This document shows positions 1,747 to 19,224 of a stretch of DNA of 22,082 nt, in pieces; within the stretch, counting starts at the first letter, position 1, and each line of letters opens with the position of its first letter. A program made the translations under genes and the position numbers. The DNA is taken from positions 1-22,082 of the IMG/VR virus record IMGVR_UViG_3300021091_001997. The stretch is one strand, 5' to 3'. The notes beneath the pieces are model-generated. The model ran no database searches, was not told the DNA's origin, and saw only the letters and a program-made list of their open reading frames with translations. The DNA comes from a virus.

Positions 1747-2112
1747 ATGAAAACAAAAGATTTTATCCGAGAAGATTATGAAGAATACCAAGATGAAGCA
1801 GGCATGGTAAAAAGTAATCTACACACTATCATACGCAGTGCTGAAGAATTAGACCAACTTATACATGATAATGAAAACATGGCTGAATGGGCACAGGAAA
1901 AAATAGCCATAGTAAAAAGCATGATAGTGACTGTAAAAGATTATGTAGCTAGTGAACACGAACTCTGTGCTGCTAAAACAGTAGCAGAAACAGCAAGCGC
2001 AGGTGCTACAGCATCAGGTGCAATAGCTACCAGCATGGGTGGTGGTGCAGGATTTGGTAAAAGCGTATTTATGAGCCGTTCAGATAGAGTTAAAAAGGCT
2101 AAGAAAAGATAA
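1747..2112 (+). CDS. Small tagged virion-type protein, probable internal head protein
   Basis: The 121-residue product begins MKTKDFIRED, the closest match in the window to the T4 IPIII capsid-targeting peptide MKTYQEFIAE, with an I-R-E cut site at residues 7-9. Residues 20-75 are predicted amphipathic helix (SNLHTIIRSAEELDQLIHDN and onward). An Ala/Gly/Ser/Thr-rich stretch and a triple glycine follow (about 78-102), and the end is basic, FMSRSDRVKKAKKR. The helical body with a basic tail suits a DNA-contacting head protein, but no enzyme motif is visible. A late-promoter octamer sits just upstream, and the stop overlaps the Dps-like gene (TAATG). The packaged status is inferred from the tag. 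Confidence 0.75.
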   Translation: MKTKDFIREDYEEYQDEAGMVKSNLHTIIRSAEELDQLIHDNENMAEWAQEKIAIVKSMIVTVKDYVASEHELCAAKTVAETASAGATASGAIATSMGGGAGFGKSVFMSRSDRVKKAKKR

Positions 2113-4589: not shown

Positions 4590-4817
4590 ATGTTAGTTTA
4601 TGATCTATTTGAAGACAATTTCTATGAGATGGCAGAAGAGCTATCTGATATCGTTACAGCACGTGAAATGATTGGACAAGCAATACAAGATTCTAAACAG
4701 TTTAAACATAGATATTTTGAATTCCTAAAGTTTCTAAGAGAAAAACACGGTGAAGCTTACAGCACACGCATGCACCAAAAAGCGGCTAAACTAGCCATTG
4801 CTAAGGAAAAAGATTAA
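4590..4817 (+). CDS. Small tagged virion-type protein (Alt-type tag)
   Basis: The likely start is ATG 4590, preceded by GGAA six bases upstream and a late-promoter octamer; a TTG at 4491 in the same frame would run through both promoters and is rejected. The 75-residue product begins MLVYDLFEDN, the M-L-x-x-[DE]-L-F-E start shared with the genes at 19306 and 21894 and similar to T4 Alt, with L-F-E at residues 6-8. The rest is helical and charged (residues about 15-70) with a basic C-terminus, lacking recognisable enzymatic motifs. Its stop overlaps the start of the tail adhesin (TAATG). A packaged internal protein is the inference; a small chaperone for the adhesin is an alternative suggested by position. 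Confidence 0.7.
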   Translation: MLVYDLFEDNFYEMAEELSDIVTAREMIGQAIQDSKQFKHRYFEFLKFLREKHGEAYSTRMHQKAAKLAIAKEKD

Positions 4818-7228
4818 TGTCAGCTGAACAAGTAATATTCCAATTTCTAAGTCAAGGTTCTAACACACTAACAAAGCCAACCGGATTCAGCAATCAGGTT
4901 TTGGTCTACGCTTGGGGTGCTGGTGGTGGGGCTGGTTCTAATGGTTCAGCCGGCGGTGGTGCAGGATTCGTAGAAGGAATCGTCACGGTTAACAGTGGCG
5001 ACACTATGGTTATAGCAGTAGGTGGTCGTGGTGGGCCTGGAATCAGTGGTTCTAGAGGAATTGGTGGGGTGAATACTAATCCAGTACTGCCGTTTGATGG
5101 TGGTACTACAGGATCTGCACAATCTGGTGCTGGGGGCGGAGGCGGAGCTGCCACTGTGATATTCGTAAACAACGTACCTATGATCGTTGCCGCCGGAGGC
5201 GGAGGTGGTAGCGGAGGTAGTGATGAACCTGGATTTGCTGGTGGAATAGCAACACTGACAGCGGCGACTCAGCGTGGTGGATCTTCGACAGATGGAGGTC
5301 AAGTAGGAGGTGGCGGTGGTGCAGGTTATCCTTTAGGTGGAGCAGGTGGCCTTAGTGTAGGCGCTAATGACCAATCAACTGGAGGCTATGGTGGGCAAAA
5401 TTTTGCTAACGCCCTAGTTAATAGCAGCACATTAACAGCAGGATCTGGAACCGTGCCAGGTGGTCGTACCAATGCCTTATATCCCCGAGCTAGCCGTGGA
5501 TATGCTGGATATGACGGTGCTGTGATAGTAATCTTTACTAAGAGTTTCCGTGGATTTATCAAAGATACTACCTGGAAAAATATTACAAATGCCTTTGTAA
5601 AAATACCAAATTCATCAACTACCTTATATCGTACTATTGCACCTAGAACAGATACATATACTTCTGGAACACATACTTTTACTATTCCTCCCGGAGTGTT
5701 TAGTTTAGATATCAGTGCGACCGGCGGCGGTGGAGGTGGAGGTGGTACGGACAGTCAATCTGGTGCAGTTGGAAGATCAGGTGCTGTTTTATCAGGAACA
5801 CTATCAGTGTCACCGGGGCAGGTGTTGACATTACATGTTGGTATGGGTGGCGGTGGTGGTGCAAATGATCAGGGAAGTGCTCCAGGCGGTGCTGGAGGAT
5901 CAAATGGAATTGGATACCGTGGTGGTAACGGTAGTGCCGCAGGACCTACTCCAATCTCTGGTGGTGGTGGGGGCGGTGGCGCAGGCACAGCCTTACTAGT
6001 TGGTAGTACTTTATACGCTGTCGCAGGTGGTGGTGGTGGTGGCGGTGGTGGTGGTAATGGTTCAGGTGGGCAGGGCGTAAATCCTGGTGGAACATCAGGC
6101 AGTATAGCAGGTGGTAATGGACAAGCCAAAGGTGGTGATGGTGGCGGCGCTGGTGGCGGTGGCGGTGGACATCCTCTAGGCGGAGCTGGTGGCATTGTTG
6201 CTGGTGGCGATAATGGTGGATTTAGTGGAGCAGATGGAGGAAGCTTAGTGCCGGCAGGATGGACACAATCATCTGCGGCCAATGGTGGAACAAATGGAGT
6301 TAGAGGAGTAAGGAGTTCAAGCCGTGGTGGGACAGGTCGAGTAACTATTGCCTATAGTTCAGCTCCAATCGCAGAAGTAGTAGAAACAGGTGGATGGAAA
6401 AGAATAATCCAATCTTACATTAAAGAAGACAATCAATGGAAGTCAATTCAATCAGATTTAAGCCTAGTACCTGTTCCTTCGTCATCTGAAACAGTTACCG
6501 TAAATATAACTATAGCGGCAGATACAAATAATTATGTACTTTCAGATTTCTTATCTGGAACTAGTTACAATCCAGGCCGTTCAATTGTAAATTTAACTGT
6601 TGATGCTGATGTGATAGTTGGTAGTACCAGTGTTGGTAGTCCAGCTCTAATAATTGATGGATTGGCCACAGGCGATCTATTTAATTTAATTAATAATGGA
6701 AACATAGCAGGCGCAGGTGGTCGTGGTGGAGCAGCTGGTCAATATACGGTTACAAATACTCCAATTTTTAATAGTAAAGGACAACCGGTTTATAGTGACA
6801 GCAAAGGTCGTATACAAGCCGTTAACACTTCAGTTACTTCAGTTCCTGGACGCCCAGGTGAAGTAGGTGGTTCAGCTTTGTACGTTACCTATCTTACTAA
6901 CCTGGTAAATAATGGTACTATCGCAGGTGGTGGTGGTGGTGGCGGTGGAGGTGGCGGACCAACTGGAGGTCAAGGCGGTGGCGGTGCTGGTAGAATAGTT
7001 GGTGCTGGCGCTAATAACGGTACACTTACAGCTGGTGGTGCTGGTACTGGTCTAGGCGGTGCAGGCGGAGCTAGAGGTACTGCGGGTTCTGCAGGTACTA
7101 ATGACACAAATATTGGTGGTCTTGGCGGGGCAGCTGGTCCAGCTATCTTAGGTATAGACAAAGTTACTATAGCTACCGCGGGAACGATTTTAGGTGAACA
7201 AAAAGTTATTGCACGTGAAGCAGGATAA
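4817..7228 (+). CDS. Glycine-rich tail fibre / adhesin
   Basis: The 803-residue product has three glycine-rich blocks (about 34-215, 285-505, 645-790) separated by non-repetitive linkers. Two linkers share a W-K-x-I...x-I/V-K theme (TWKNITNAFVKIP, GGWKRIIQSYIKEDNQWKSI) that is common in cyanophage tail fibres. The last part, VNITIAADTNNYVLSDFL with an N-N-G-x-I-A-G-x-G-G repeat, resembles adhesins of T4-like phages in which poly-glycine strands pack as a polyglycine-II sandwich whose loops bind the host surface. There is no signal peptide, as expected for a virion protein. Two exact 28-base GGT-rich repeats lie inside. The first block also resembles the 'glycine-rich' domains of many phage fibres. 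Host receptor unknown. Confidence 0.85.
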   Translation: MSAEQVIFQFLSQGSNTLTKPTGFSNQVLVYAWGAGGGAGSNGSAGGGAGFVEGIVTVNSGDTMVIAVGGRGGPGISGSRGIGGVNTNPVLPFDGGTTGSAQSGAGGGGGAATVIFVNNVPMIVAAGGGGGSGGSDEPGFAGGIATLTAATQRGGSSTDGGQVGGGGGAGYPLGGAGGLSVGANDQSTGGYGGQNFANALVNSSTLTAGSGTVPGGRTNALYPRASRGYAGYDGAVIVIFTKSFRGFIKDTTWKNITNAFVKIPNSSTTLYRTIAPRTDTYTSGTHTFTIPPGVFSLDISATGGGGGGGGTDSQSGAVGRSGAVLSGTLSVSPGQVLTLHVGMGGGGGANDQGSAPGGAGGSNGIGYRGGNGSAAGPTPISGGGGGGGAGTALLVGSTLYAVAGGGGGGGGGGNGSGGQGVNPGGTSGSIAGGNGQAKGGDGGGAGGGGGGHPLGGAGGIVAGGDNGGFSGADGGSLVPAGWTQSSAANGGTNGVRGVRSSSRGGTGRVTIAYSSAPIAEVVETGGWKRIIQSYIKEDNQWKSIQSDLSLVPVPSSSETVTVNITIAADTNNYVLSDFLSGTSYNPGRSIVNLTVDADVIVGSTSVGSPALIIDGLATGDLFNLINNGNIAGAGGRGGAAGQYTVTNTPIFNSKGQPVYSDSKGRIQAVNTSVTSVPGRPGEVGGSALYVTYLTNLVNNGTIAGGGGGGGGGGGPTGGQGGGGAGRIVGAGANNGTLTAGGAGTGLGGAGGARGTAGSAGTNDTNIGGLGGAAGPAILGIDKVTIATAGTILGEQKVIAREAG
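6021..6048 (+). repeat. Direct repeat copy 1 in adhesin gene
   Basis: A 28-base stretch starting TCGCAGGTGG and continuing with GGT/GGC codons is identical to 6921-6948. The copies are 900 bases apart, so both are in the same reading frame. Confidence 0.8.
6921..6948 (+). repeat. Direct repeat copy 2 in adhesin gene
   Basis: Second copy of the 28-base repeat at 6021-6048. Recombination between them would remove 300 codons in frame, joining the second glycine-rich block to the tip. Confidence 0.8.
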
Positions 7229-7242: not shown

Positions 7243-7581
7243 ATGAGTAAGATCAATATCAAGATAGTAGAAGTGGACCAAGATTCGCATACGGTATTAG
7301 TAAAATATGCCAGCGAAAAAAGTCAAAAAAACATAGACGAATATCCTGCTGTGGCATTCCAAGTTACAAATTATAATGTGACCACAGCAGAAGAATTTAT
7401 TGAAGCCATACGTCCACAAGTAAGTTTATATGTGTGGCAAAGAGATCTTCAAGAAAATCCAGCCAAATCAATCGATCTTTCTGGATGGAATGGACACGTA
7501 GTAGAAGTAGATGCATTCGAATTACCTGCTCCAGCGGCACCACCACTTGAAGCACTAGCTAATCCGGAAGTAATTCTATGA
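7243..7581 (+). CDS. Small phage protein downstream of the adhesin, unknown function
   Basis: The 112-residue product begins MSKINIKIVEVDQDSHTVLVKYASEK, a pair of beta strands that recalls small proteins beside tail fibres in T4-like cyanophages. Its C-terminus is rich in Pro and Ala (ELPAPAAPPLEAL). It has an AAGGAG ribosome site, 14 bases after the adhesin stop, and its own stop overlaps the next gene by ATGA, so it is read with the adhesin and the cupin-like gene. A fibre chaperone or a fibre-attached protein would fit the place, but no motif proves either. No signal peptide or membrane segment. Confidence 0.7.
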   Translation: MSKINIKIVEVDQDSHTVLVKYASEKSQKNIDEYPAVAFQVTNYNVTTAEEFIEAIRPQVSLYVWQRDLQENPAKSIDLSGWNGHVVEVDAFELPAPAAPPLEALANPEVIL

Positions 7582-8087
7582 TCCTAAACAATGCTGTTAA
7601 TGCTGGTGGATTTATCTACTGCATGGCTCATTTTTCACCCAACGAATCTAATACCTATCATAATCAAGGTAATGGACATTTCCATCAATATCTCTATATA
7701 GTGGATGGGCAAGGTATAGTTGAAAATCGAGAAACAGCAGATGGTCCGGCTATTCGCAGAGAGGAAGGTAATGGAGTTGGTATGCTTGTGGATCTTACAG
7801 CCACTAGAGGACTTTTTCATACTACCATCACTAATGAAACCTCTCTAACAGTAATATTGTTTAATCCTATCCCAGAAACTAGAAATCTTAAAGTAGAAAT
7901 TATAAAAGGCGAACAATCACAAATAATTACTGCTGATGATAATCGTAAAGTTATTGTTTGTATAACAGGTCCAGTAATAGCAAATAATAAAACTTTAATG
8001 AGTCTACAACACGCTAAAATATTCCCAGGAAAAACTGTAGAACTAGCTGTTCCAAAACATTCAGTCTGTGCTATAGTGTCAGAATAA
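7578..8087 (+). CDS. Cupin-like protein near tail fibre genes
   Basis: The 169-residue product has GNGHFHQYLYIVDGQG at about residues 32-47, close to cupin motif 1 (H-x-H, then G) though the usual Glu is missing. A G-L-F-H-T-T-I-T-N segment at about 76-84 stands in for motif 2. Two H-x-H/H positions could still bind a metal. The second half repeats a strand-rich pattern (VIVCITGPV, FPGKTVELAV), so a bicupin-like double barrel is possible. Cupins range from sugar isomerases to storage proteins, and catalysis cannot be inferred. It overlaps the preceding gene by ATGA and is followed by an inverted repeat, which may mark the end of the adhesin transcript. Confidence 0.65.
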   Translation: MILNNAVNAGGFIYCMAHFSPNESNTYHNQGNGHFHQYLYIVDGQGIVENRETADGPAIRREEGNGVGMLVDLTATRGLFHTTITNETSLTVILFNPIPETRNLKVEIIKGEQSQIITADDNRKVIVCITGPVIANNKTLMSLQHAKIFPGKTVELAVPKHSVCAIVSE

Positions 8088-8147: not shown

Positions 8148-9386
8148 ATGGAACAATACGTAGTCACAGGTATTGGTATACATAACAGCTTAGGTTGTAC
8201 AGCACAGGAAAGTTGGACTAATCTTATAGCAGGCAATTCAGCAGTTAAAAAAATCAACTGGCCTGGAGATGATCTTGATTGTTGGCCAAATACATACGCC
8301 AGTGTGTACAAAACAAAAATCGCAGCAATAAGTAAAAAACTAACAAATGAAGATTTACATCCAGAAAAATTTGATTATGGGTGGAACCATTGGGATCCTA
8401 ATACTCGTGCTTGTCTGATGAGTGTAGATGAAGCTGTTGAGGATTCTGGAATAAAAAGCGAAAAAGTAGGCGTAATAATTACAACATTTGGTAGCGGAAC
8501 TACTATAAGATTAGATTTATTTCATTCAATCAACAAAGGTCGCACCAAATATCCCCCACGTAAACTGTTAAATATTGGATTAGATTTTCCTGCCGCACAA
8601 GTAGCCGCTATCTATGGATTCACGGGAACTAATACTGCTATGGACAGTGCCTGCACCACAGGTATTACCAGTATTGACTATGCTATCACCAGTCTCAAAG
8701 CAGATCCCAATCTGGATGCTATGGTAGTTGGTGGTGCCGATCATCTATGCGAGCCTATCAATATATTTTGGTTCCAGAGCCTTGGTGCGCTATGCCCAAG
8801 CGATGATCCAGCAGACAATCGTCCGTTTGATGTCGATCGCAAAGGATTTGTCATGGGCGAAGGTGCTGCCACAATGATCATAGAACCACTTAGTAAGGCC
8901 AAGGCTAGAGGTGCTAAAATCTATGGTGCTATCCTTAGCACTAACTTATATACACTATTTGACAGCGATACCAGTCCAGATCCCACTGGATTAGGTGCTC
9001 GTACCTGTGTACAGGCTGCACTAGACAAAGCTGGTATCACAGCCGATCAAGTAGACTTTGTTAATGCCCATGCTACCAGCACACCTGTAGGTGATGAAAT
9101 AGAATTCGCCGCAATGGCCGCACTAACCCCAGGTAAGACTATGGTCAGTAACAAAGGACAGATTGGACACAGCATGAGCACCGCTGGTATAGTGGAAACT
9201 ATCTATACATTACAGGGTATGTGTACAGGACAACAACCGGGTAATGCTAACTTAGAAAATCCTTTAGGGCAGGGTATAATTCTACCTACAGAATCAACTA
9301 AACTAAATGTTAAATACGCTATAAAGAATAGTTTTGGATTTGGTGGACGTAATGCCAGCATGGTCTTGGAAAGATATGATAGCTAA
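8148..9386 (+). CDS. fabF: Beta-ketoacyl-ACP synthase II-like enzyme (FabF type)
   Basis: The chosen ATG at 8148 gives 412 residues beginning MEQYVVTGIG, the normal start of this family; an upstream TTG at 8130 is not needed. FabF condenses malonyl-ACP with an acyl-ACP to lengthen fatty acids. The catalytic set is visible: C169 in DSACTTG, H308 in NAHATSTPVGD, K336 in NKGQIGH, H341 in GHSMSTAG, and the glycine-rich NSFGFGG near the end. Length is the usual one. The end overlaps the first desaturase, so chain elongation and desaturation are coupled. No acyl carrier protein is seen in the window, so the host's ACP would be used. FabB or a secondary-metabolite ketosynthase are alternatives, but FabF is the best fit. 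Confidence 0.9.
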   Translation: MEQYVVTGIGIHNSLGCTAQESWTNLIAGNSAVKKINWPGDDLDCWPNTYASVYKTKIAAISKKLTNEDLHPEKFDYGWNHWDPNTRACLMSVDEAVEDSGIKSEKVGVIITTFGSGTTIRLDLFHSINKGRTKYPPRKLLNIGLDFPAAQVAAIYGFTGTNTAMDSACTTGITSIDYAITSLKADPNLDAMVVGGADHLCEPINIFWFQSLGALCPSDDPADNRPFDVDRKGFVMGEGAATMIIEPLSKAKARGAKIYGAILSTNLYTLFDSDTSPDPTGLGARTCVQAALDKAGITADQVDFVNAHATSTPVGDEIEFAAMAALTPGKTMVSNKGQIGHSMSTAGIVETIYTLQGMCTGQQPGNANLENPLGQGIILPTESTKLNVKYAIKNSFGFGGRNASMVLERYDS

Positions 9387-10164
9387 AATACTAAAATATA
9401 TGGCGCCTTCAACAGCATCAACAGCATTATTGCAGTTGAGTTGGCCTCTTGGAATATATCTTGGTATACAGTCAGGTGCTAGTTGGGGATGGTGGGTAAG
9501 TTGCATTTTATTTTATCTCATCATCTATAGTATGATAGGTAATAACATTAGCCTACACAGATATTTCACACACGATCATTTTACTGTAAGCAAACCAGTC
9601 GAGTGGGTTTTCTTATGGACTGGATGCATGACTGGGCTAGGCGAGCCGTTAAGTTATGCCATGACACACATCATACATCACAAGTATAATGACACTGAAT
9701 TGGACCCCCATGGACCTATACGTGGCAAACGCAGCTGGTTTATCTGGTTCCAAAAAACCGTAGATCCATTTGAAACTCCTGTGTTTAGCAGAAGACTTAT
9801 TTCTCTAAACATTAAATATGGATGGTTACATAGATATTACGTGCCTTTTGTCCTCGTAAATGCACTTATACTCTATCTGATCAGCTATAAAGTATTCTTA
9901 TTCCTATGGTTGATTCCTGCTAGCACTACCTGTTGGGGAGTAGGGTGGGCAGTGTGGCGCCAACACTGGCACATGGAGCCTAATAATAGTCCATTACATC
10001 GCTGGGATTGGGTATATGAAGGACTACATCTTAATCATCACTTGTATCCTGCGGCTCCAAATACCGCAGTAAGACCCAGTGAAATAGACTGGACGCATCA
10101 ATTTAGTAAAATTTTTAGACCTAAATTCCATTGGCAGGGGCAGCCTACTGATGTTAAAGAATAA
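9376..10164 (+). CDS. Membrane fatty-acid desaturase (first of a tandem pair)
   Basis: The start chosen is the ATG at 9376 with GGA five bases upstream, overlapping the end of fabF by 11 bases; an ATG at 9352 is possible. The 262-residue product has the three histidine boxes of the acyl-CoA/acyl-lipid desaturase family: HRYFTH, HIIHHKYND and HLNHHLYP, which bind two irons. Hydrophobic stretches flank box 1 and lie between boxes 2 and 3, consistent with four membrane passes. It would insert a double bond into a fatty acyl chain (delta-9 type by family), using O2 and host electron carriers. Its stop lies inside the second desaturase gene. Confidence 0.88.
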   Translation: MIAKILKYMAPSTASTALLQLSWPLGIYLGIQSGASWGWWVSCILFYLIIYSMIGNNISLHRYFTHDHFTVSKPVEWVFLWTGCMTGLGEPLSYAMTHIIHHKYNDTELDPHGPIRGKRSWFIWFQKTVDPFETPVFSRRLISLNIKYGWLHRYYVPFVLVNALILYLISYKVFLFLWLIPASTTCWGVGWAVWRQHWHMEPNNSPLHRWDWVYEGLHLNHHLYPAAPNTAVRPSEIDWTHQFSKIFRPKFHWQGQPTDVKE

Positions 10165-10903
10165 ACAGTGGATCATACAACCTAATTATATATGGATGAC
10201 GCTTATGCAGGTCATGCTACCTGTTTATGTTTATCTAGCCTGGGGAAGTGCATGGTATTGGTGGGCGGTAACTTTTGTATTTTATTTCTTATATCTCTGC
10301 ATAGGCAACAATATAGGTATGCATCGTTACTACAGTCATAGATATTTTGAAATGACAAAACCCGTAGAATATTTTGTGTCATGGTGTGCTTTCATGGCCT
10401 GCTTAGGTAGCCCGTTAAGTTATGTAAACATACACAATGTTCATCATGCACATAATGATACACTACTAGACCCACACGGTCGTCAGCGTGGATGGAAGTC
10501 GGTGCTATTCTGGTATCATAAACACCTATGGCCTTGTGATATGATATTCAGCAGAAATCTACTAAAACTCACAGCCCGCTATAAACTCCTACACGACTAC
10601 TATTGGTTATGGGTATTTGGTTGTGCAGGCCTAATGTATATCCTAGGTGGATGGAATGCGTTATTATTCTGTTGGTTATTACCTGCAAGTTTAACCCTAT
10701 GGGCAGTAGCATTAGTTTTATTATTACAGCATGACGATCAAGGACCAAGCAATACCAGAAGCTATATGTGGTTTGGCTTTGGTGAAACTTGGCATGCTAA
10801 TCATCATGCAGATCCAAGTTTACTCGATCATAGTCTGGGCAAGGGCACGGACTGGACCTATCAATTATGCAGAATCCTATCCAAGTCAAAGAAACCGCGT
10901 TAG
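10151..10903 (+). CDS. Membrane fatty-acid desaturase (second of a tandem pair)
   Basis: The 250-residue product overlaps the first desaturase by 14 bases and has its own complete boxes: HRYYSH, HNVHHAHND and WHANHHADP. Shared blocks with the first copy include I-G-N-N-I-x-x-H-R-Y, K-P-V-E, G-x-P-L-S-Y, L-D-P-H-G and L-L/I-P-A-S, so the two arose by an old duplication. The third box here, F-G-E-T-W-H-A-N-H-H, is closer to typical bacterial acyl-CoA desaturases than that of copy 1. The segment W-R-Q-H-W-H of copy 1 is replaced by L-L-L-Q-H-D-D, suggesting a different regiospecificity or substrate. Four membrane segments are likely. Confidence 0.88.
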   Translation: MLKNKQWIIQPNYIWMTLMQVMLPVYVYLAWGSAWYWWAVTFVFYFLYLCIGNNIGMHRYYSHRYFEMTKPVEYFVSWCAFMACLGSPLSYVNIHNVHHAHNDTLLDPHGRQRGWKSVLFWYHKHLWPCDMIFSRNLLKLTARYKLLHDYYWLWVFGCAGLMYILGGWNALLFCWLLPASLTLWAVALVLLLQHDDQGPSNTRSYMWFGFGETWHANHHADPSLLDHSLGKGTDWTYQLCRILSKSKKPR

Positions 10904-11487
10904 ACTTAGAACGCTTGAAACGTGATTGCAGGCGGATCAATAATAAAGTCTGTAAGCAGTTAGGCAATCTAGAAATTCCTAGCCACACAGCATATCAATC
11001 AACTCTTAAAGAACAATTAGATGCGGCTCCAGTAAGCAGTCGCTTACACGATTACTACAATGTGTTTAGTTTTCCTTATGATGGAATAAACGAGTTGTAT
11101 CGAGTAGTATGTGAGTTTTTTAAAGATGTCTGTGAGTATGATCAACCCTACTACATACACGCTTGGCTAAACTACCTACAAAAAGGTGATAGCGTTCCCT
11201 GGCATAATCATTGGGGTGCTCTAAGTGGGCTTACCCAGACCTATGTATGTAGTGCTTATATCAATGCAGAACCCAGTAATACTATCTATAAGTTCCCAGA
11301 TGGCGATGTCTATGAAATAAAGAATCGCAATAATACTATTACCTTATATGAAGACATAGGTGATACACATATGGTAGAACCCTGGACTTTAGATGAACCC
11401 AGAATAACTATCAGTATGGATATGGTTCCTATGAAATACATACAGGGATCGCCGTTTTTACTCAACACTTGGATGCCTATTGTATAA
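10867..11487 (+). CDS. 2-oxoglutarate/Fe(II)-dependent oxygenase-like protein
   Basis: The 206-residue product overlaps the second desaturase by 37 bases in another frame. Residues 110-185 show the phage 2OG-Fe(II) oxygenase pattern: W-H-N-H-W at 112-116 (H113 and H115), S-G-L..Y..A-Y-I-N strands, G-D-T-H-M-V with distal H168, and R179 in E-P-R-I-T-I-S, which would bind the 2-oxoglutarate carboxylate. The proximal motif is H-x-H instead of H-x-D, as I recall for the phage branch of the family. Such enzymes hydroxylate lipids, proteins or nucleic acids. Its place behind FabF and two desaturases suggests lipid hydroxylation, but that is inference. No membrane segment is evident. Confidence 0.78.
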   Translation: MQNPIQVKETALDLERLKRDCRRINNKVCKQLGNLEIPSHTAYQSTLKEQLDAAPVSSRLHDYYNVFSFPYDGINELYRVVCEFFKDVCEYDQPYYIHAWLNYLQKGDSVPWHNHWGALSGLTQTYVCSAYINAEPSNTIYKFPDGDVYEIKNRNNTITLYEDIGDTHMVEPWTLDEPRITISMDMVPMKYIQGSPFLLNTWMPIV

Positions 11488-11516: not shown

Positions 11517-12230
11517 ATGAAGAAACTAGTATTGGCATTAAGCCTATTTTGTAGCGCGACGGCTTATGCGGGTATTAACCAACAGTGCAGTCAATTCACA
11601 GCCGCAGGCACACCACAATACGCACCAAAAGCAGGTGATCAAGAGATCTGTCACAAGAACTATGCTGTTATCCATAGCTGTGCTGTTAAAGCACCAATCG
11701 CAGTGTTTGAGCATCTAACAGTGGCAGTCATGTCAGGACCAGCTCAGCGTAAAGATGATTTCCGTCCTGATCCACAGGTAACTCCTAACTGTTCAGCTAC
11801 TCTAGCTGACTATGCTACAGTTAGTCGTACACATGATCGCGGACACATGAGTCCAGCTAAAAACAATACAACTAATGCTGAAATCATGAGCGAAAGTTTC
11901 TTATTATCAAACATGGTTCCACAGGTCGCCAACAACAATCGTGGTATCTGGAAACAGCTAGAAATGCAGGAACGCCAATGGGCAACTGCTCCAGGCACAG
12001 ATTTCTATATCATTTCAGGCGGTATATATGATCAAGGGCATGCTCGGACTGGTAACGGTCTAGGTATTCCCACACGCTTATATAAGATCATCATTGAGAA
12101 AAATAGTAAAAGAGCTATGGCATATCTAATGCCAAATCAATCACTACCGGTGGCAGATTTGCCTAAATATCAGACAACGGTACAGGCAGTAGAATCTGCA
12201 ACTGGATTTAAATTTAACCTACCTAAATAA
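11517..12230 (+). CDS. Exported DNA/RNA non-specific endonuclease (NUC1, beta-beta-alpha metal type)
   Basis: The 237-residue product begins with a clear Sec signal peptide (MKK, a hydrophobic core LVLALSLFC, then SATAYA, cut before Gly19). The nuclease core holds DRGHMSPA at 107-114 with the general base H110, and S-N-M-V-P-Q with N132 plus NNRGIWKQLE (140-149) with the metal-binding Asn and Glu. Several cysteines (24, 45, 55, 92) may form disulfides in the periplasm. The family cuts DNA and RNA without sequence preference with Mg2+. Export keeps it away from phage DNA in the cytoplasm. A perfect late promoter precedes it, so it would be made late. It is not tagged for the capsid. Confidence 0.9.
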   Translation: MKKLVLALSLFCSATAYAGINQQCSQFTAAGTPQYAPKAGDQEICHKNYAVIHSCAVKAPIAVFEHLTVAVMSGPAQRKDDFRPDPQVTPNCSATLADYATVSRTHDRGHMSPAKNNTTNAEIMSESFLLSNMVPQVANNNRGIWKQLEMQERQWATAPGTDFYIISGGIYDQGHARTGNGLGIPTRLYKIIIEKNSKRAMAYLMPNQSLPVADLPKYQTTVQAVESATGFKFNLPK

Positions 12231-12231
12231 T

Positions 12232-12606
12232 ATGACAAATACTAACGAATTCTGGGGATATCATCTAATACTCGACTGCTCAGCTTGCCATGTGCCCAGC
12301 ATACAAAGCAGAGAAAACGTCTACAACTGGATCACGCACTTGGTCCGTGTTATAGACATGGAACCAATTGGTGAACCACACATAGAATACACCGCAGCAG
12401 AATTCCCCGATAAAGCAGGATTTACTGCTATACAGATCATAGTAACATCAAGCATCGTGGCACACTTTATTGACAGTACAGGTGACGTTTATATAGATGT
12501 GTTCTCATGCAAAGAGTTTGATAACGACATAGTTATTGGCACTATTAAAGATGCATTCCTTCCCAAGAAGATTCGCACCACTTTCTTGACTCGCCAGGCA
12601 GGATAA
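12232..12606 (+). CDS. speD: S-adenosylmethionine decarboxylase-like protein
   Basis: The 124-residue product begins with W-G-Y-H-L-I-L-D-C-S-A-C and has D-M-E-P-I-G-E-P-H, G-F-T-A-I-Q-I-I-V-T-S-S-I-V-A-H-F and Y-I-D-V-F-S-C-K. This is the pattern of SpeD-like proteins of T4-like cyanophages. Bacterial SpeD cleaves itself at Glu-Ser to form a pyruvoyl group and makes decarboxylated AdoMet for spermidine. Here Ser73-Ser74 replaces Glu-Ser; H78 and C93 match conserved catalytic positions. Autoprocessing is therefore plausible but unproven. Polyamines would help neutralise packaged DNA. It starts two bases after the endonuclease stop. Confidence 0.78.
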   Translation: MTNTNEFWGYHLILDCSACHVPSIQSRENVYNWITHLVRVIDMEPIGEPHIEYTAAEFPDKAGFTAIQIIVTSSIVAHFIDSTGDVYIDVFSCKEFDNDIVIGTIKDAFLPKKIRTTFLTRQAG

Positions 12607-12637: not shown

Positions 12638-13321
12638 ATGCAAGCAAAAGACCTAATTAGAGCCACACCAAACACCAAGATCTACCTAGACATGGATGGT
12701 GTTCTCGCAGACTTTTTCGCAGAATATGCCAAACTAGCGGGTGTAAACAATTATAGAGATATTCCACCAGCTAGTGCAGACCCTACATTGAAAAAAATGG
12801 TAGGCACAGACTTCTTCAGCAGATTGCCAAAATTCTCTACAGCAGACAGCCTAGTAAAACTAGTATTAAAATACGTTAAAACATATGGCGTCTGTTCAAG
12901 TCCCCTACGTGGTGACTTCAAGAACAGCGGACAGCATAAACGCATATGGATAAAAAACCACTTAGATCCACAACCCGCAGAAATCATCATCACTGGGCAG
13001 AAAGAACGACATGCTGTTAATCCAGATGGTAGCCCTAATATCTTGATAGATGATCGTGGTGTGAATATTGTCGCTTGGCGTGCCCGTGGTGGGATTGGTA
13101 TAAAATATCAAGCAGATGAAGACAGCCTACAGAAAGTAGCCAATGGTCTAGCCATGGCATATAATAAATTAGCAGAAGCAGTAGACGTAAACTATGGCAT
13201 AGGTAAAACACCTGGTGTGCTGTTTAGGATTGGCAACGTATATGGTAAGAAAAATCTACGTGTACCACATGCTAAACTGCATAGGAATACTAAAAACAAG
13301 AACCTAGGAATACCCCGATGA
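12638..13321 (+). CDS. HAD-type 5'-nucleotidase-like phosphatase, possible capsid cargo
   Basis: The 227-residue product has the HAD motif I K-I-Y-L-D-M-D-G-V-L-A-D-F (D18 nucleophile, D20 acid), C-S-S-P as motif II (about 86-89), I-T-G-Q-K lysine region (about 119-122) and I-L-I-D-D-R as motif IV (D138, D139). This set is that of the deoxyribonucleotide 5'-nucleotidase (NT5C) branch, which removes phosphate from (d)NMPs. After residue 180 a basic extension ends KLHRNTKNKNLGIPR, not part of the enzyme fold. The start MQAKDLIRA resembles the M-[KR]-x-K-D-F-I tag but lacks the I-x-E cut site. It overlaps the next gene by ATGA and heads the tagged block. Confidence 0.82.
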   Translation: MQAKDLIRATPNTKIYLDMDGVLADFFAEYAKLAGVNNYRDIPPASADPTLKKMVGTDFFSRLPKFSTADSLVKLVLKYVKTYGVCSSPLRGDFKNSGQHKRIWIKNHLDPQPAEIIITGQKERHAVNPDGSPNILIDDRGVNIVAWRARGGIGIKYQADEDSLQKVANGLAMAYNKLAEAVDVNYGIGKTPGVLFRIGNVYGKKNLRVPHAKLHRNTKNKNLGIPR

Positions 13322-14046
13322 AGTTATACGAAGGTGGCAATGTATTCAAAACTGCTGACGGTGCTCCAGCAACTACCCGCATCGCCCGTGAAAACGTAGT
13401 AGCCACTGTGCAATGGTTAGAACAATTAACAGGTCTGAATCTAGTAGACAACATGCTAGGATCAACTGGGCGTAAAGAAACTTCAGGTGATTTGGATCTA
13501 GGCATAGACGAAACAAAGATAACCAAGGATGTGCTAATACAACAACTCTTACGCAAAGGCATTCCAGCAGCGGATATAAAGAAGTCTGGTGACAGCGTGC
13601 ATCTTAAGACTCCTATCCTAGGTGATAAATCCAACGGATATGTGCAGACAGATTTCATGTTTGGTGATCCAGAGTTCCAAAAGTTCAGCTTGGTAGCTGA
13701 TGGCGATAGTGCCTATAAAGGTGTGCATCGTGCTTTATTGCTGGCCAGCATTGCCAAAGCACAGGGCATGAAATGGAGTTATAAAAACGGCCTGGTAGAT
13801 CGTGACACTAATGAAACTATTACCAAGAATCCCTCTGAGATAGCACAGAATTTAATCAATGGAACACCAGCTGACATGACCAGCGTAGAATCTATTATTA
13901 AAAAAATCAAAGCACTGCCCAACTACGATGAACTAGTAAAAGATGCACGTGAAGCCTTTGAGCGTGATAAACTAACCTTGCCAGAAGACAGTGTATTACC
14001 TGGCACAGGTGCTTGGTATAGACAATTTATTAACAAGAGAGTATAA
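13318..14046 (+). CDS. Pol-beta-superfamily nucleotidyltransferase-like protein
   Basis: The 242-residue product contains M-L-G-S-T-G-R-K-E-T-S-G-D-L-D-L at 46-61: the G-S helix turn (G48, S49) and the two metal-binding acids D58 and D60. A third acid, D112 in V-Q-T-D-F-M-F, fits the last catalytic position. The fold therefore resembles minimal nucleotidyltransferases that add a nucleotide to RNA, protein or small molecules. A nearly identical family occurs in T4-like cyanophages, usually starting MKLYEGGNVF as here, with no assigned function that I know. The start is not the capsid tag, although neighbours on both sides have it. Residues 130-170 hold a helical H-R-A-L-L-L-A-S region. Confidence 0.75.
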   Translation: MKLYEGGNVFKTADGAPATTRIARENVVATVQWLEQLTGLNLVDNMLGSTGRKETSGDLDLGIDETKITKDVLIQQLLRKGIPAADIKKSGDSVHLKTPILGDKSNGYVQTDFMFGDPEFQKFSLVADGDSAYKGVHRALLLASIAKAQGMKWSYKNGLVDRDTNETITKNPSEIAQNLINGTPADMTSVESIIKKIKALPNYDELVKDAREAFERDKLTLPEDSVLPGTGAWYRQFINKRV

Positions 14047-14047
14047 G

Positions 14048-14596
14048 ATGAGAGCAAGAGACTTTATCCAAAAAATTGTAGAAGCAAATTTACCGCAAAC
14101 TACAATGCCTCAAGGCAAGCAACCAAAACTAAATTTACCTCCATTAGTAAAAGGATTAATTTTACATTGGTTTTTGATGTATTATGGATTACATCATGCT
14201 GATGAACCTGAAATCATCGACGATCGAGCAGGTTATGAAGCTGATCTAGATAAGATCACTAAGAAACTAGCACAGTTGGGATTTGCTATCCAATGGGTAG
14301 ACAATCTGCCTGATTTAGGTGATGGTGGCGGTGGTGAAGGTGTTTATCTCACACACGTAGCTAGTAAACAAACAGTTGGTATTGATCATTATGATATAGA
14401 ACAAGATTATGAAAGATTTTTACCTATGGCCCACAAAGCCATATATGGCACCAATTTAGAAGAAAGTTCAAAGGACGCCTGCTATCACAAGGTCAAGAGC
14501 AGATATAAAGTTTGGCCAAGTGCTTATGCAAGTGGTGCCTTGGTCAGATGCCGTAAGGTAGGTGCAAAGAATTGGGGAAATAAAAGCAAAAAATGA
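14048..14596 (+). CDS. Tagged phage protein with basic paired-Cys C-terminal module
   Basis: The start is ATG 14048, one base after the previous stop; an in-frame GTG at 13991 lies inside the previous gene and is rejected. The 182-residue product begins MRARDFIQKIVEAN, with I-V-E at 10-12. Residues 55-140 form an acidic mixed domain of unknown type. The end is the conserved phage module A-C-Y-H-K-V-K-S-R-Y-K-V-W-P-S-A-Y-A-S-G-A-L, then R-C-R-K-V-G-A-x-N-W (C145, C168), which I recall at the end of many unrelated myovirus proteins. The basic module may bind DNA inside the head. It overlaps the next gene by ATGA. Confidence 0.72.
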   Translation: MRARDFIQKIVEANLPQTTMPQGKQPKLNLPPLVKGLILHWFLMYYGLHHADEPEIIDDRAGYEADLDKITKKLAQLGFAIQWVDNLPDLGDGGGGEGVYLTHVASKQTVGIDHYDIEQDYERFLPMAHKAIYGTNLEESSKDACYHKVKSRYKVWPSAYASGALVRCRKVGAKNWGNKSKK

Positions 14597-15486
14597 AAAT
14601 ACGTGAGCTAAGTGAACGCTGCTGGAAGGGCTACAAGCAGGTAGGTGGCAAGAAAAAAGGTGGACGCATGGTGCCTAACTGCGTGCCTGTTGAAGAAACA
14701 CGCCGCGATCCTACTGAACTGTTCAAACCCCAAGACAGTGAGTTAGATGACCTCCATCACAAATATATCGCTAGCTGGACTATGTTGGATCATCACATAT
14801 TAGAAAAGATCTATGTGTTCGCAGATGATGACTATGCAGAACAATTCATTGACCTAGTAAATGAGTTCAGCGAAAGCATGGATCACAATGCGGTAATCAC
14901 ACAGGACAATGCAGAAGTAAAATTGCAGATTACTACCAATGATGTCAAGGGGCTAACCATACTTGATTTTGAATTCGCCCTACGTGCAGAAGATGCCGCA
15001 GATAAACTAGATGGTGAATCAAAATCACATCCAACTAATGCTATAAACGAAGATCAAGAAAAATATATTTTGTATCTTAATGATAAGCCTGTTAGTGTTT
15101 ATACTTCAAATATGGAAGCTAACAATCAAGCTAAGATGGTAGCACAAAAGTATCCTACAGCAAGGATTACGGTTAAGAAAGAAGTCTGCACCTTAACTCC
15201 TGTCCAGTTAGAAGAAAATCTACGCGATTGGTTTGGTAAAGGTAAACAAGGTGGTGCTGGTGGCGGGGGTTGGGATAGATATAATACCAAAGGTGAGCGC
15301 ATAGGCAAATGCGGAGATCGCAAACCAGGTGAAGGCAAACCCAAATGCCTAAGCAAGAGTAAGGCCGCCGCACTCAGAGCCAAAGGTGGTAAGAAAGCCA
15401 TAGCGGCCGCAGTTAGACGTAAACGTTCAAAAGATACAAATCCAGAACGCAAAGGCAAAGCGATTAACGTGAGCAACAAGATATGA
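14593..15486 (+). CDS. Tagged protein with two basic Cys-pair modules and a degenerate pterin-dehydratase-like domain
   Basis: The 297-residue product begins MKIRELSERC with L-S-E at 6-8. Residues 10-30 form a C-W-K-G-Y-K...M-V-P-N-C module. Residues about 66-137 resemble pterin-4a-carbinolamine dehydratase: an F-x-x-x-D-Y-A-E-Q-F helix start, then D-H-N-A-V, V-K-L-Q-I-T-T-N-D-V-K-G-L-T and D-F-E-F-A. The family's catalytic His-His-Pro and Thr-His are replaced by H98-N99 and T115-N116, so catalysis is doubtful. The end (about 210-297) is a very basic block: W-F-G-K-G-K...G-G-G-W-D-R-Y, C240, C252, then K-S-K-A-A-A-L-R-A-K-G-G-K-K and many Arg and Lys. A DNA-binding virion protein is inferred. 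Confidence 0.7.
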   Translation: MKIRELSERCWKGYKQVGGKKKGGRMVPNCVPVEETRRDPTELFKPQDSELDDLHHKYIASWTMLDHHILEKIYVFADDDYAEQFIDLVNEFSESMDHNAVITQDNAEVKLQITTNDVKGLTILDFEFALRAEDAADKLDGESKSHPTNAINEDQEKYILYLNDKPVSVYTSNMEANNQAKMVAQKYPTARITVKKEVCTLTPVQLEENLRDWFGKGKQGGAGGGGWDRYNTKGERIGKCGDRKPGEGKPKCLSKSKAAALRAKGGKKAIAAAVRRKRSKDTNPERKGKAINVSNKI

Positions 15487-16958
15487 GAGCTAAAGATCTA
15501 ACCAAAGGCAACATAGCCTATCACGATGAGCTGAACCCTAGTGTATGGGATGGTCGTGAGCTCCGTGCGGATGTGCGTTATAAACTATTAGAGATAGCCA
15601 AGCGTTTCATAGAATATCTCGATGTGCCAGATTTTAAATTGATAGATGTGATCCTCCGTGGTAGTTTAGTAAACTATAATTACACACAATACTCAGATTT
15701 TGATCTACACATCGTCACTGACTACAAGACGTTAGACTGTGATATCACAGAACAGTTCTATATGGCCAAAAAGAAAATATGGAACGATGAACATGACATC
15801 ACCGTCAAAGGACATGAAGTAGAATTATATGTAGAAGATCGTGATGAAGAAAATGCCTCAGAAGGTATGTACAGCGTGTTAGATAATGTTTGGTACAAAA
15901 GACCTAAATATCAGCAACCTGATATCGATGATCGTGCCGTTAATGCCAAAGCACAGGATCTGATGACACAGATCAATCGCGCTGTGCGATCAGGCAGTGT
16001 AGAAGATATCACACGCTTGCAAGATAAGATCAAGAACATGCGCCAATCAGGACTAGACGCTGGTGGGGAATTTTCAACAGAAAATCTAGCATTTAAAATA
16101 GTACGCAACAAAGGGTATCTAGACCGCCTGTACAAAAACAAAAATTCTAAGTTTGATCAACAACTCAGTTTAGATGAAGGTATCAAACAGAACGCCGCAG
16201 TGGCTGCACTAGTGGCAGCACTTAGTGGTAATCCAGCACAAGCAGATTACAATTATCCCGAAACACAAAAACAAGATCCAAATGCTGTACAAAAAGCCTT
16301 GATCATCTTACGCAGTATCAACAAGATGAAGAACTATGGTCAAGCTGGACTAGAAGCTGAAGCACAGCAAGAATTTAATAATATCTTACGTAGCATGCAA
16401 GGAATGCCTAATCAGAGCCGTGTGTATCCAATCATTAAAGATTTGATCAATAGTCCAGAAACAAAAACTTTACCGCCTTTGTACGATCCTAGCTACATTC
16501 CACCAAAAGATGATGTAAATGAACGCAAGAAAGCTAAAAAGAAAAAGAAAAAATCTAGTCGTAGATCACTAGGTGGCTATTATGGTTACTATTGGGGTGG
16601 GGGATATCATGACCACGCAGACAGTGGTGCAGGTGATGCTGGCGGAGGTGGTGGAGATGGCGGTGGTGGCGAAAGCATGCGCGAAAGCCGTGAGCAATTA
16701 GATCCACGTGTAGAAGAATTCCTAGATGGACTTACTCCAGATGATGTGGGTGTAGATGAAGTGGGAGATTACGTCATACACTACGAAGGATTCACAGACC
16801 AATGCCAAGATTCAAAAGAATATCAAGCGGATCCAGAAGCAGTATTCCAAGACGTATGGGGTGACTTTAAGCGCCGCATGGGTGATAAAGATCCCATCAA
16901 CTATGGTATAGTTGGTAGTGAAGATTACCCTATCGTTTATAGTGTGTTTAGACGATGA
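15483..16958 (+). CDS. Nucleotidyltransferase-like protein with long basic and glycine-rich extension
   Basis: The 491-residue product starts MRAKDLTKGN, the tag shape without the I-x-E site. Residues 50-120 hold a Pol-beta nucleotidyltransferase signature: L-R-G-S (G60, S61), Y-S-D-F-D-L-H-I-V (D72, D74) and H-E-V-E-L-Y-V (E114 as the third acid). A helical region follows to about 230, then A-A-V-A-A-L-V-A-A-L, a Q-rich helix, a poly-lysine stretch (about 350-362), a Y/G/W-rich segment and a G-G-G-D-G run, and a separate acidic C-terminal domain (about 410-491). The domain order (enzyme, spacer, basic linker) is unusual. A nucleotidyl-transferring effector or toxin-like enzyme is possible; the substrate is unknown. 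ATGA overlaps at both ends. Confidence 0.72.
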   Translation: MRAKDLTKGNIAYHDELNPSVWDGRELRADVRYKLLEIAKRFIEYLDVPDFKLIDVILRGSLVNYNYTQYSDFDLHIVTDYKTLDCDITEQFYMAKKKIWNDEHDITVKGHEVELYVEDRDEENASEGMYSVLDNVWYKRPKYQQPDIDDRAVNAKAQDLMTQINRAVRSGSVEDITRLQDKIKNMRQSGLDAGGEFSTENLAFKIVRNKGYLDRLYKNKNSKFDQQLSLDEGIKQNAAVAALVAALSGNPAQADYNYPETQKQDPNAVQKALIILRSINKMKNYGQAGLEAEAQQEFNNILRSMQGMPNQSRVYPIIKDLINSPETKTLPPLYDPSYIPPKDDVNERKKAKKKKKKSSRRSLGGYYGYYWGGGYHDHADSGAGDAGGGGGDGGGGESMRESREQLDPRVEEFLDGLTPDDVGVDEVGDYVIHYEGFTDQCQDSKEYQADPEAVFQDVWGDFKRRMGDKDPINYGIVGSEDYPIVYSVFRR

Positions 16959-17254
16959 GAGCCAAAGAATTCATAACTGAACACAAACCTGTATTTAGGC
17001 GTAATCCTAACACAGGTCATATACAATTATTTTGGCGATGTGAAAGCGGCCTAAGAAAAGGTAGAACTGTACCAAAAGTTGCAGATTGTTCAGCATCCTA
17101 TGATATCGCCAAAGCCCAACGTTTAAAAAAGATTAGGGCTAGAACATATAAAAATCAAGCGAGATTATCAAAGCTTACAAAAAAACGTTCTAGAGCTAGT
17201 AGAGTAGCAAGTCAACTAAACAAATGGCTTCGACCTAAGAAAAAAAGAAAATGA
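16955..17254 (+). CDS. Small very basic tagged protein with paired-Cys module
   Basis: The 99-residue product begins MRAKEFITEH, an ideal example of the tag with I-T-E at 7-9. The remainder is extremely basic: V-F-R-R-N-P-N-T-G, W-R-C-E-S-G-L-R-K-G-R-T-V-P, C45 (C29 and C45 are the only cysteines), then a Lys/Arg-rich helix to the end, KKKRK. W-R-C-x-S-G-x-R-K-G-R-x-V recurs, as I recall, in small proteins of T4-like phages. After cleavage of the tag the mature protein would be about 90 residues, similar in size and charge to T4 internal proteins that bind packaged DNA. ATGA overlaps on both sides show tight translational coupling. Confidence 0.75.
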   Translation: MRAKEFITEHKPVFRRNPNTGHIQLFWRCESGLRKGRTVPKVADCSASYDIAKAQRLKKIRARTYKNQARLSKLTKKRSRASRVASQLNKWLRPKKKRK

Positions 17255-17541
17255 GACAGGAAGACTTTGATCAGTGCTACAAACTAGCCAATGACCTTTA
17301 TACTAAAGAAAAGACCAAAGGCAAGATGCCTGTCTTATTACAGGTAGCAGGATTTAAAGGACACACTGAACTAGCTGATCCTAGATGGCAACGGATACCA
17401 CCTAAATATTGGCATCATTATGTTGTAGTGTTAGATAACGTAGTACATGATCCTAGTGCGAAACAGTTTGGTCAGACTAAAACAGAATATGCAGTAGGTG
17501 AACTTGGTAGAACATGGGATATGGTGTATAAGGTAAAATGA
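17251..17541 (+). CDS. Small papain-like / transglutaminase-like protein (putative Cys-His-Asp hydrolase)
   Basis: The 96-residue product has C9 in an N-terminal helix (D-Q-C-Y-K-L-A-N-D-L), a strand V-L-L-Q-V-A-G-F-K-G, then W-H-H-Y-V-V-V-L-D-N-V-V-H-D-P-S-A-K-Q-F with H55/H56 and D67. Cys on a helix, then His-x-V on a strand and Asp-Pro-[ST] in the next strand is the order of a papain-fold catalytic triad as in transglutaminase-like amidases and deamidases. The protein is very short for that fold, but the core elements are present in the right order. Possible acts are peptide-bond or amide hydrolysis, or deamidation; the substrate is unknown. The start MRQEDF resembles the tag only in part. 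It overlaps the preceding gene by ATGA. Confidence 0.65.
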   Translation: MRQEDFDQCYKLANDLYTKEKTKGKMPVLLQVAGFKGHTELADPRWQRIPPKYWHHYVVVLDNVVHDPSAKQFGQTKTEYAVGELGRTWDMVYKVK

Positions 17542-17542
17542 T

Positions 17543-17929
17543 ATGAGAGCGAATGATTTTTTATTTGAAATATCAAAAAAATATGATAATATGATACCTC
17601 CTCCTCATTGGAATCCTCGTTGGCCTGTTGAATATAGAACAATATATGATCGGTACAAAAGAGGTACCCATCAGATGAGTAATTCCGATATGCAGATTAT
17701 TAATATGTTGAATAACTACGTTCCAAGAAAAAATAATATGAACCCAATTTCAACTAATAAGCATTATGCTAATTATAGACAACGTGATCTAATACCAGCA
17801 GGCATAGTAGATTTATATTCCAAAGGTAAAACCCCAACAGATATAGCAAACTTTTATAGAATACCTTTAGAACAAGTAATAAACACTTTAAAAGCACGAG
17901 GGATAACAGGAAGAACATTTAGAACATGA
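17543..17929 (+). CDS. Tagged small protein with C-terminal helix-turn-helix
   Basis: The 128-residue product begins MRANDFLFEIS, the tag with L-F-E at 7-9. Residues 18-60 contain Pro/Trp-rich H-W-N-P-R-W-P and helical segments. The C-terminal 35 residues (IVDLYSKGKTPTDIANFYRI and on through V-I-N-T-L-K-A-R-G-I) have the spacing of a resolvase- or sigma-like helix-turn-helix, with K-T-P-T-D-I-A as turn and helix 2. A DNA-binding protein delivered with the genome could act on host or phage promoters at once after entry; that is an inference. It begins one base after the preceding stop and overlaps the next gene by ATGA. AT-rich codon use matches the small neighbours. Confidence 0.68.
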   Translation: MRANDFLFEISKKYDNMIPPPHWNPRWPVEYRTIYDRYKRGTHQMSNSDMQIINMLNNYVPRKNNMNPISTNKHYANYRQRDLIPAGIVDLYSKGKTPTDIANFYRIPLEQVINTLKARGITGRTFRT

Positions 17930-19224
17930 GAGCTAGACAGTTTATATTAGAATACAATCAACAGGCCACGATACAACGCTTTGGTGATAAACTTCTGCAG
18001 ACTGTGCTTAAAGATCCTAGCCCAGAGATTTCCGCCATACATCACATGTTGCAGTATCGCAAAGAATTTAAAGATTTCAATCTAAGTCCGAATACAAAAA
18101 CCAATATCTTGATCAGCGTCATGCAGGCTATCGAAGGTGCAGATCCAACTAAGAACAAAGAATACACAGTGTTCTTGGCTAAGATGTATGCTGGTGGTGG
18201 CTGGGGTAGTAAGATCGAAGACTTAGAAAGCAAGATCAAACCAGCACTAGAAAAATTCCACTTATTAAAACTTAAACGTAAAATACCTGCACCACGCAAC
18301 GACATCATGCGTTATGCGGACCTAGCAGACTTTGTAGCAGTGGTAGATGAATATCCAGATCCAGAAGAGAAAAAACAAGCGGACAAAGGTACAAGCAAGA
18401 CAGTATTTGAAAATGATCAAGTGCGTATCGTAGTTCCAGAAGACCAAACGGCGGCCTGCTATTATGGACAAGGAACACGTTGGTGTACTGCGGCTCAAAC
18501 AAGTAGCAACTACTTTGGGCACTATAATAAACAAGGGCCACTGTATATCTTACTGCCTAAACAGCCTCGTCATGACGGTGAAAAATATCAACTGCACTTT
18601 GAAAGTGAGCAGTTCATGGATGAAAACGATTATAATGTTGAAAACATTGTTAACCTGCTAGAACATCGCTTTGGTAACTTAATACCATGGTTCCAAGAAC
18701 ATGCGCCTGCTATACGTGAATGGGTCGTGTTTGCTGCTGATGATTATCTTAAAGAACCATTGATGAAGATCGGTGAGATAGTCATGGAACACGTATGGGA
18801 AATGGTAAGTGATTGGGAAATAAATGATGACTACTGGTATGAGCATCTACGCAAAGAAGGCTATGTATATCCAGAAGGACATGAAGAAGAGGGCATGATC
18901 GACTGGGATCGAGCCGCAGAGGATGATGTAGATTATCTCAACTGGAATTATGATGCCAACGATTGGTTTATGGCAGCTAAAGAAGCTGTGGAAGTTACGC
19001 CTACTCAAGCACGCAGAACCGCAGAAGAAGGTTATGAAGAAGAAAAAGAATTGATCGTCATGGGCGAACTTGAACTGATACCAGCATACAATGTACGCCA
19101 GGCATTTGAGCGTAGCCGTGATGGTGATGGCGGACTAGAAGAATGGATCCACAAACACGTGGTCATGCAGCGAGATGGTGACAAGTGGACTGCTAAGTTC
19201 TACACACCACCTAAGAAGAATTAA
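17926..19224 (+). CDS. Tagged conserved phage protein with GxxTxWCTA motif, function unknown
   Basis: The 432-residue product starts MRARQFILEYN with I-L-E at 7-9. Residues about 1-130 are mainly helical. Around 177-235 is the best-conserved part: A-C-Y-Y-G-Q-G-T-R-W-C-T-A-A, then Y-F-x-x-Y-x-x-x-G-P-L-Y-I-L-L-P-K and K-Y-Q-L-H-F-E. I recall the G-x-x-T-x-W-C-[TI] pattern from several phage and plasmid proteins with no known activity; the invariant Cys could be catalytic. Residues about 270-400 are strongly acidic with many Trp and Tyr, ending in a more basic tail. A thiol-dependent enzyme or an immune-system decoy are guesses. It is followed by an unusually GC-rich 81-base gap. Confidence 0.7.
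   Translation: MRARQFILEYNQQATIQRFGDKLLQTVLKDPSPEISAIHHMLQYRKEFKDFNLSPNTKTNILISVMQAIEGADPTKNKEYTVFLAKMYAGGGWGSKIEDLESKIKPALEKFHLLKLKRKIPAPRNDIMRYADLADFVAVVDEYPDPEEKKQADKGTSKTVFENDQVRIVVPEDQTAACYYGQGTRWCTAAQTSSNYFGHYNKQGPLYILLPKQPRHDGEKYQLHFESEQFMDENDYNVENIVNLLEHRFGNLIPWFQEHAPAIREWVVFAADDYLKEPLMKIGEIVMEHVWEMVSDWEINDDYWYEHLRKEGYVYPEGHEEEGMIDWDRAAEDDVDYLNWNYDANDWFMAAKEAVEVTPTQARRTAEEGYEEEKELIVMGELELIPAYNVRQAFERSRDGDGGLEEWIHKHVVMQRDGDKWTAKFYTPPKKN

Follow-up and report, generated by a model that had tools for sequence, protein, structure and literature searches.

Where phages carry a single lipid-desaturase gene, the usual explanation is control of fluidity by a gene acquired from the host. Viral fatty acid desaturases have been described from cryopeg brine and sea ice, with two viruses having five copies each (PMC7300359), from phages of Lake Baikal (PMC7678222), and as lipid desaturases of cyanophages (Roitman et al. 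2018, as cited in PMC7300359 and PMC11480375). On the side of fatty acid synthesis, fabG-acpP-fabF clusters are reported from prophages in Rhodobacteraceae (PMC8224337), and fabF, fabG, fabI and fabZ are already listed as viral AMGs (PMC12783922, PMC10653327).

The window analysed here, a stretch of 22,082 bases, is the whole of IMG/VR record IMGVR_UViG_3300021091_001997. It encodes a FabF-like beta-ketoacyl synthase (KS), two membrane desaturases (Des1 and Des2) and a 2OG-Fe(II)-oxygenase-like protein in one overlapping unit (Table 1). We interpret this unit as a phage operon that modifies acyl chains, and give this reading a probability of about 0.6.

Table 1. The desaturase unit and neighbouring features of the window.
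Feature	Position	Strand	Length	Evidence or remark
Glycine-rich tail-fibre-like gene	4817-7228			near the unit
Cupin-fold protein	7578..8087	+		AlphaFold pLDDT 90; Foldseek to cupins
KS, FabF-like beta-ketoacyl synthase	8148..9386	+	412 aa	Pfam PF00109/PF02801
Des1, SCD/DesC-type membrane desaturase	9376..10164	+	262 aa	PF00487; boxes HRYFTH, HIIHH, HLNHH
Des2, second membrane desaturase	10151..10903	+	250 aa	PF00487; boxes HRYYSH, HNVHH, HANHH
2OG-Fe(II)-oxygenase-like protein	10867..11487	+	206 aa	PHROG 81 "2OG-Fe(II) oxygenase", 9e-16
Endonuclease_NS family nuclease with signal-peptide-like start, then S-adenosylmethionine decarboxylase	11517-12606			downstream of the unit (Pfam)

The unit and its phage group

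Ten further IMG/VR contigs, from related jumbo T4-like phages (labelled G001-G010; the group is known here from metagenomes only), also carry the unit. All eleven contigs encode desaturases and the oxygenase, and nine encode the KS. The order KS-Des1-Des2-oxygenase is found in seven other contigs (G001-G006 and G010). In G001 an SDR-like gene (L018:6136-6783) is placed between Des2 and the oxygenase, overlapping by 4 nt on each side; it has no Pfam match and a weak FabG-like PHROG match, and a YxxxK motif is not apparent. The KS of G007 is followed by five desaturases in tandem, then by an ORF of 93 aa, a FabI-like reductase and the oxygenase. The FabI-like protein, of the enoyl-ACP reductase type, matches solved FabI structures with 181 bits (E 2e-52), and its catalytic Tyr/Lys lie in the motif YNVMGVAK. 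G008 (218.9 kb) carries Des1-Des2-oxygenase, with no match to the KS anywhere in the record, and within 15 kb of the unit two more PF00487-like desaturase genes lie on the opposite strand (L064:1691-3413 and 13387-14139). A third His-rich, membrane-like ORF without Pfam match is also seen there on the opposite strand. The G009 record ends inside the first gene of a desaturase-Des2-oxygenase array, which puts the KS position past the record end. The comparison with other phage genomes that the initial annotation had proposed thus gives a syntenic unit of variable composition in ten other contigs and not a scattered assembly. The KS, absent from G008, is not a fixed component of it.

The surroundings of the unit in G001 (118.7 kb) are the same as in the window, and the T4-like DNA polymerase of G001 shares 52% identity with the enzyme of Sinorhizobium phage Phosso (469 kb) and 47% with the one of Agrobacterium phage Atu_ph07 (490 kb). 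These observations indicate that the window is most likely a piece of a large T4-like phage. An artefact or a contaminating host contig is ruled out by the ten syntenic viral contigs, which share the surroundings of the unit, together with the T4-like polymerase. The T4 late-promoter motif TATAAATA has a single + strand site in the window, at 11483, which is not above chance expectation. Six other proteins of the window (1747-2112, 12638-13321 and 15483-19224) begin with MRAKDF-like N-termini, which resemble the T4 capsid-targeting sequence of internal proteins; the proteins of the unit have no such N-terminus. An S-adenosylmethionine synthetase is also encoded by G001.

The ORF coordinates agree with the overlaps first reported for the window, 11 nt for KS/Des1, 14 nt for Des1/Des2 and 37 nt for Des2/oxygenase, all on the + strand; the start of Des1 is ambiguous, with an in-frame TTG upstream at 9334. 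All junctions tabulated across the contigs overlap, by 4-53 nt, where those in G001, G004, G007 and G008 depend partly on alternative start codons. Chance overlap is ruled out by the conservation of the junctions among contigs. The overlaps suggest translational coupling, and by inspection most inner starts are without an obvious Shine-Dalgarno sequence. The dN/dS of the unit genes is about 0.04-0.31, indicating purifying selection. Median pairwise Nei-Gojobori omega is 0.164 for the KS, 0.167 for Des1, 0.095 for Des2 and 0.169 for the oxygenase; the cupin gene upstream has 0.284 and the nuclease gene downstream 0.129. Synonymous sites are close to saturation in many of the pairs behind these values. 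The cupin gene lies immediately upstream of the unit in every contig that extends that far and is under weaker constraint than the unit genes (ten sequences aligned, one being an additional copy that follows the unit in G007). The cupin-fold protein is possibly part of the unit.

Catalytic features of the encoded enzymes

The KS contains both ketoacyl synthase domains (Pfam E-values 3e-34 for the N-terminal and 3e-24 for the C-terminal domain). Cys169, His308, Lys336 and His341, the Cys-His-His triad and lysine of FabF/KAS II-type enzymes, are invariant among seven aligned phage KSs, which bears out the earlier statement that the FabF catalytic residues are complete. The best PDB relatives are FabF, and the protein additionally matches a polyketide KS family. 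Against the NCBIfam fabF model TIGR03150, the KSs of the window and of G007 score 268 and 273 bits, far under the cut-off of 493.75; we therefore call the KS FabF-like and not a housekeeping FabF equivalog. Most matches to "phage" FabF were left out of the comparison, being unannotated fragments or records that are possibly host DNA.

Des1 and Des2, 38% identical to each other, both score above the cut-off of the Pfam FA_desaturase family (7e-11 and 1e-12). The histidine boxes of both had been described as complete, and each indeed retains the nine histidines of SCD/DesC-type enzymes, three boxes and a further metal-binding His. These residues (Des1 61, 66, 98, 101, 102, 197, 218, 221 and 222) are invariant in 20 phage desaturases. 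The PDB sequence closest to a profile of Des1 and Des2 is stearoyl-CoA desaturase 4zyo. All the phage desaturases belong to one family. Des1 and Des2 each make up one group in the tree, and both clades occur throughout these phages; of the five G007 copies, four belong to the Des1 side, with the deep branches uncertainly placed. As the tree reads, the family has grown by tandem copying inside the phage group. A search of 50,697 phage records gave no desaturase close to Des1 or Des2, and two scans of genome contigs by conserved peptide patterns, a method able to miss relatives, gave no close bacterial relative. The second scan gave three bacterial desaturase loci at 24-27% identity. One of the three, on contig L055 (DGBH01000176.1, from a Bacteroidetes bin), has two distant desaturases, one of which overlaps an SDR gene by 4 nt, as well as a TauD-like oxygenase and a radical-SAM-like ORF; it may be a binned phage fragment.

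The oxygenase is less well defined. It matches Pfam 2OG-FeII_Oxy_5 below the cut-off (0.0035), and a PDB sequence search returned spurious matches only. The AlphaFold model (pLDDT 88) has, by Foldseek, a double-stranded beta-helix fold whose nearest neighbours are the uncharacterised, PF13759-like proteins 3bvc and 2rg4, followed by prolyl hydroxylases, namely the Pseudomonas putida enzyme bound to EF-Tu and human PHD2. His113-x-His115, His168 and Arg179 are invariant in eleven aligned sequences. The metal motif is thus HxH...H, not HxD/E...H. With a histidine in place of the acid of the iron triad, 2OG-dependent chemistry is likely, not certain.

Proposed acyl-chain remodelling and alternative readings

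As judged from sequence, the KS and desaturase sites are intact, the junctions overlap and the unit has long been retained under purifying selection. We suggest that the unit probably alters the fatty acid composition of its host during infection. In Escherichia coli, FabF elongates 16:1 to 18:1 in membrane thermal control. The phage KS would condense malonyl-ACP with acyl-ACP of the host, whose FabG, FabZ and FabI would complete the elongation round, with G007 supplying its own FabI. The desaturases, lodged in the inner membrane of the host and supplied with electrons by a host donor, would introduce double bonds into acyl chains bound for host phospholipids, acting on host acyl-lipid or on acyl-CoA/ACP. 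The oxygenase may hydroxylate such a chain, or another target while co-expressed with the unit. The net outcome would be that membrane acyl chains become longer and more unsaturated while the cell is infected, to the advantage of virus production or release. Searches for an ACP in all eleven records and for a Fer2 ferredoxin in six of them were negative, so that both must come from the host.

The initial annotation had gone further, to a dedicated pathway of elongation, two desaturations and possible hydroxylation. The part that stands is a set of phage-borne, syntenic, intact and selected acyl-chain enzymes, and G007, with its KS, five desaturases and FabI, strengthens it. Elongation was overstated: a KS alone is no pathway, and without an ACP in the records it needs host ACP and the other Fab enzymes. 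Lipid hydroxylation was overstated too, as the iron motif is non-canonical and prolyl hydroxylases predominate among the fold neighbours with a known function. The benefits proposed there, in fluidity, lysis timing or the blocking of other phages, are speculative. A stronger version, in which KS (with FabI in some phages), position-specific desaturases and oxygenase act sequentially on the same chain in a nearly self-contained viral pathway, yielding an unusual poly-unsaturated, hydroxylated fatty acid foreign to the host and required by the phage, we consider doubtful. Des1 and Des2, as paralogues, could act on different substrates rather than on one chain.

The role of the oxygenase in lipid chemistry is the weakest part of our reading, since those structural neighbours whose function is known mostly have protein substrates. 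It is quite conceivable, at somewhat under even odds, that the desaturases (and the KS where present) alone act on lipids, while the co-expressed oxygenase hydroxylates a protein such as a tail-fibre or host protein. The glycine-rich tail-fibre-like gene near the unit would offer such a target, and related PHROG-81 oxygenases occur in cyanophages, for which several copies per genome are reported with no desaturase mentioned (PMC3037559). However, the oxygenase closes the operon in 11/11 contigs, overlapping the preceding gene even when this is the FabI or SDR-like gene, and its close relatives are found in unit-bearing contigs only; both observations speak against this reading.

We think it unlikely that, instead of remodelling the bulk membrane, the unit serves to produce a specialised acyl compound, free or conjugated, such as a signal or an antimicrobial. 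The low fabF score and polyketide match of the KS, the FabI added in G007 and the rows of two to five desaturases, which are reminiscent of polyyne/alkyne clusters, are consistent with such a product. Neither an acyl-AMP ligase nor a thioesterase is recognised beside the unit, however, ACP is absent from all eleven records, and the best PDB relatives are FabF for the KS and SCD for the desaturases. The position of the unit beside tail-fibre-like and cupin genes also makes a virion-linked role possible, in which it acylates or modifies a virion component or a surface glycolipid; in Pelagibacter phage Mosig, too, a desaturase gene stands next to one for a 2OG-type hydroxylase, close to tail-fibre genes. 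We regard this as very unlikely, because no acyltransferase is recognised in the unit and metabolic genes often lie near structural ones in T4-like phages.

This phage group has kept and enlarged a desaturase family of its own, diverged from any bacterial relative found, in an overlapping operon with elongation and oxygenase genes. It thereby offers a testable case of viruses running acyl-chain chemistry of their own, and at about 3.3 kb the four genes lend themselves to joint expression.

Comparison with known systems

We know of no multi-enzyme unit from the cyanophage work, which the present locus resembles in that both concern phage lipid desaturases. In the literature searched, which covers the field partially, a conserved operon of KS, desaturase and oxygenase genes did not come up. 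The enzymes share catalytic residues and overall sequence class with bacterial KAS II (FabF) and mammalian stearoyl-CoA desaturase, but among the collections searched the identity between the KS and bacterial FabF does not exceed about 34%. The Rhodobacteraceae prophage clusters also link FabF to phages; they differ in following the E. coli fab cluster order with ACP included, and the accessible text describes no desaturase or oxygenase alongside (PMC8224337). Mosig EXVC030M (MT647606) has the same adjacency of a desaturase and a 2OG-type gene, but its oxygenase is of another family (Asp_Arg_Hydrox), its single desaturase is 26% identical over 68% of Des2, and no KS is annotated nearby. The viral desaturases of cryopeg brine and sea ice are likewise SCD-like, with intact histidine motifs and under purifying selection, and the five copies in each of two viruses equal the number in G007; in the accessible part of that report, no operon is described that combines them with a KS, a FabI or a 2OG oxygenase (PMC7300359). 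Single phage desaturases were known before, and what appears to be new is their conservation within a multi-enzyme unit.
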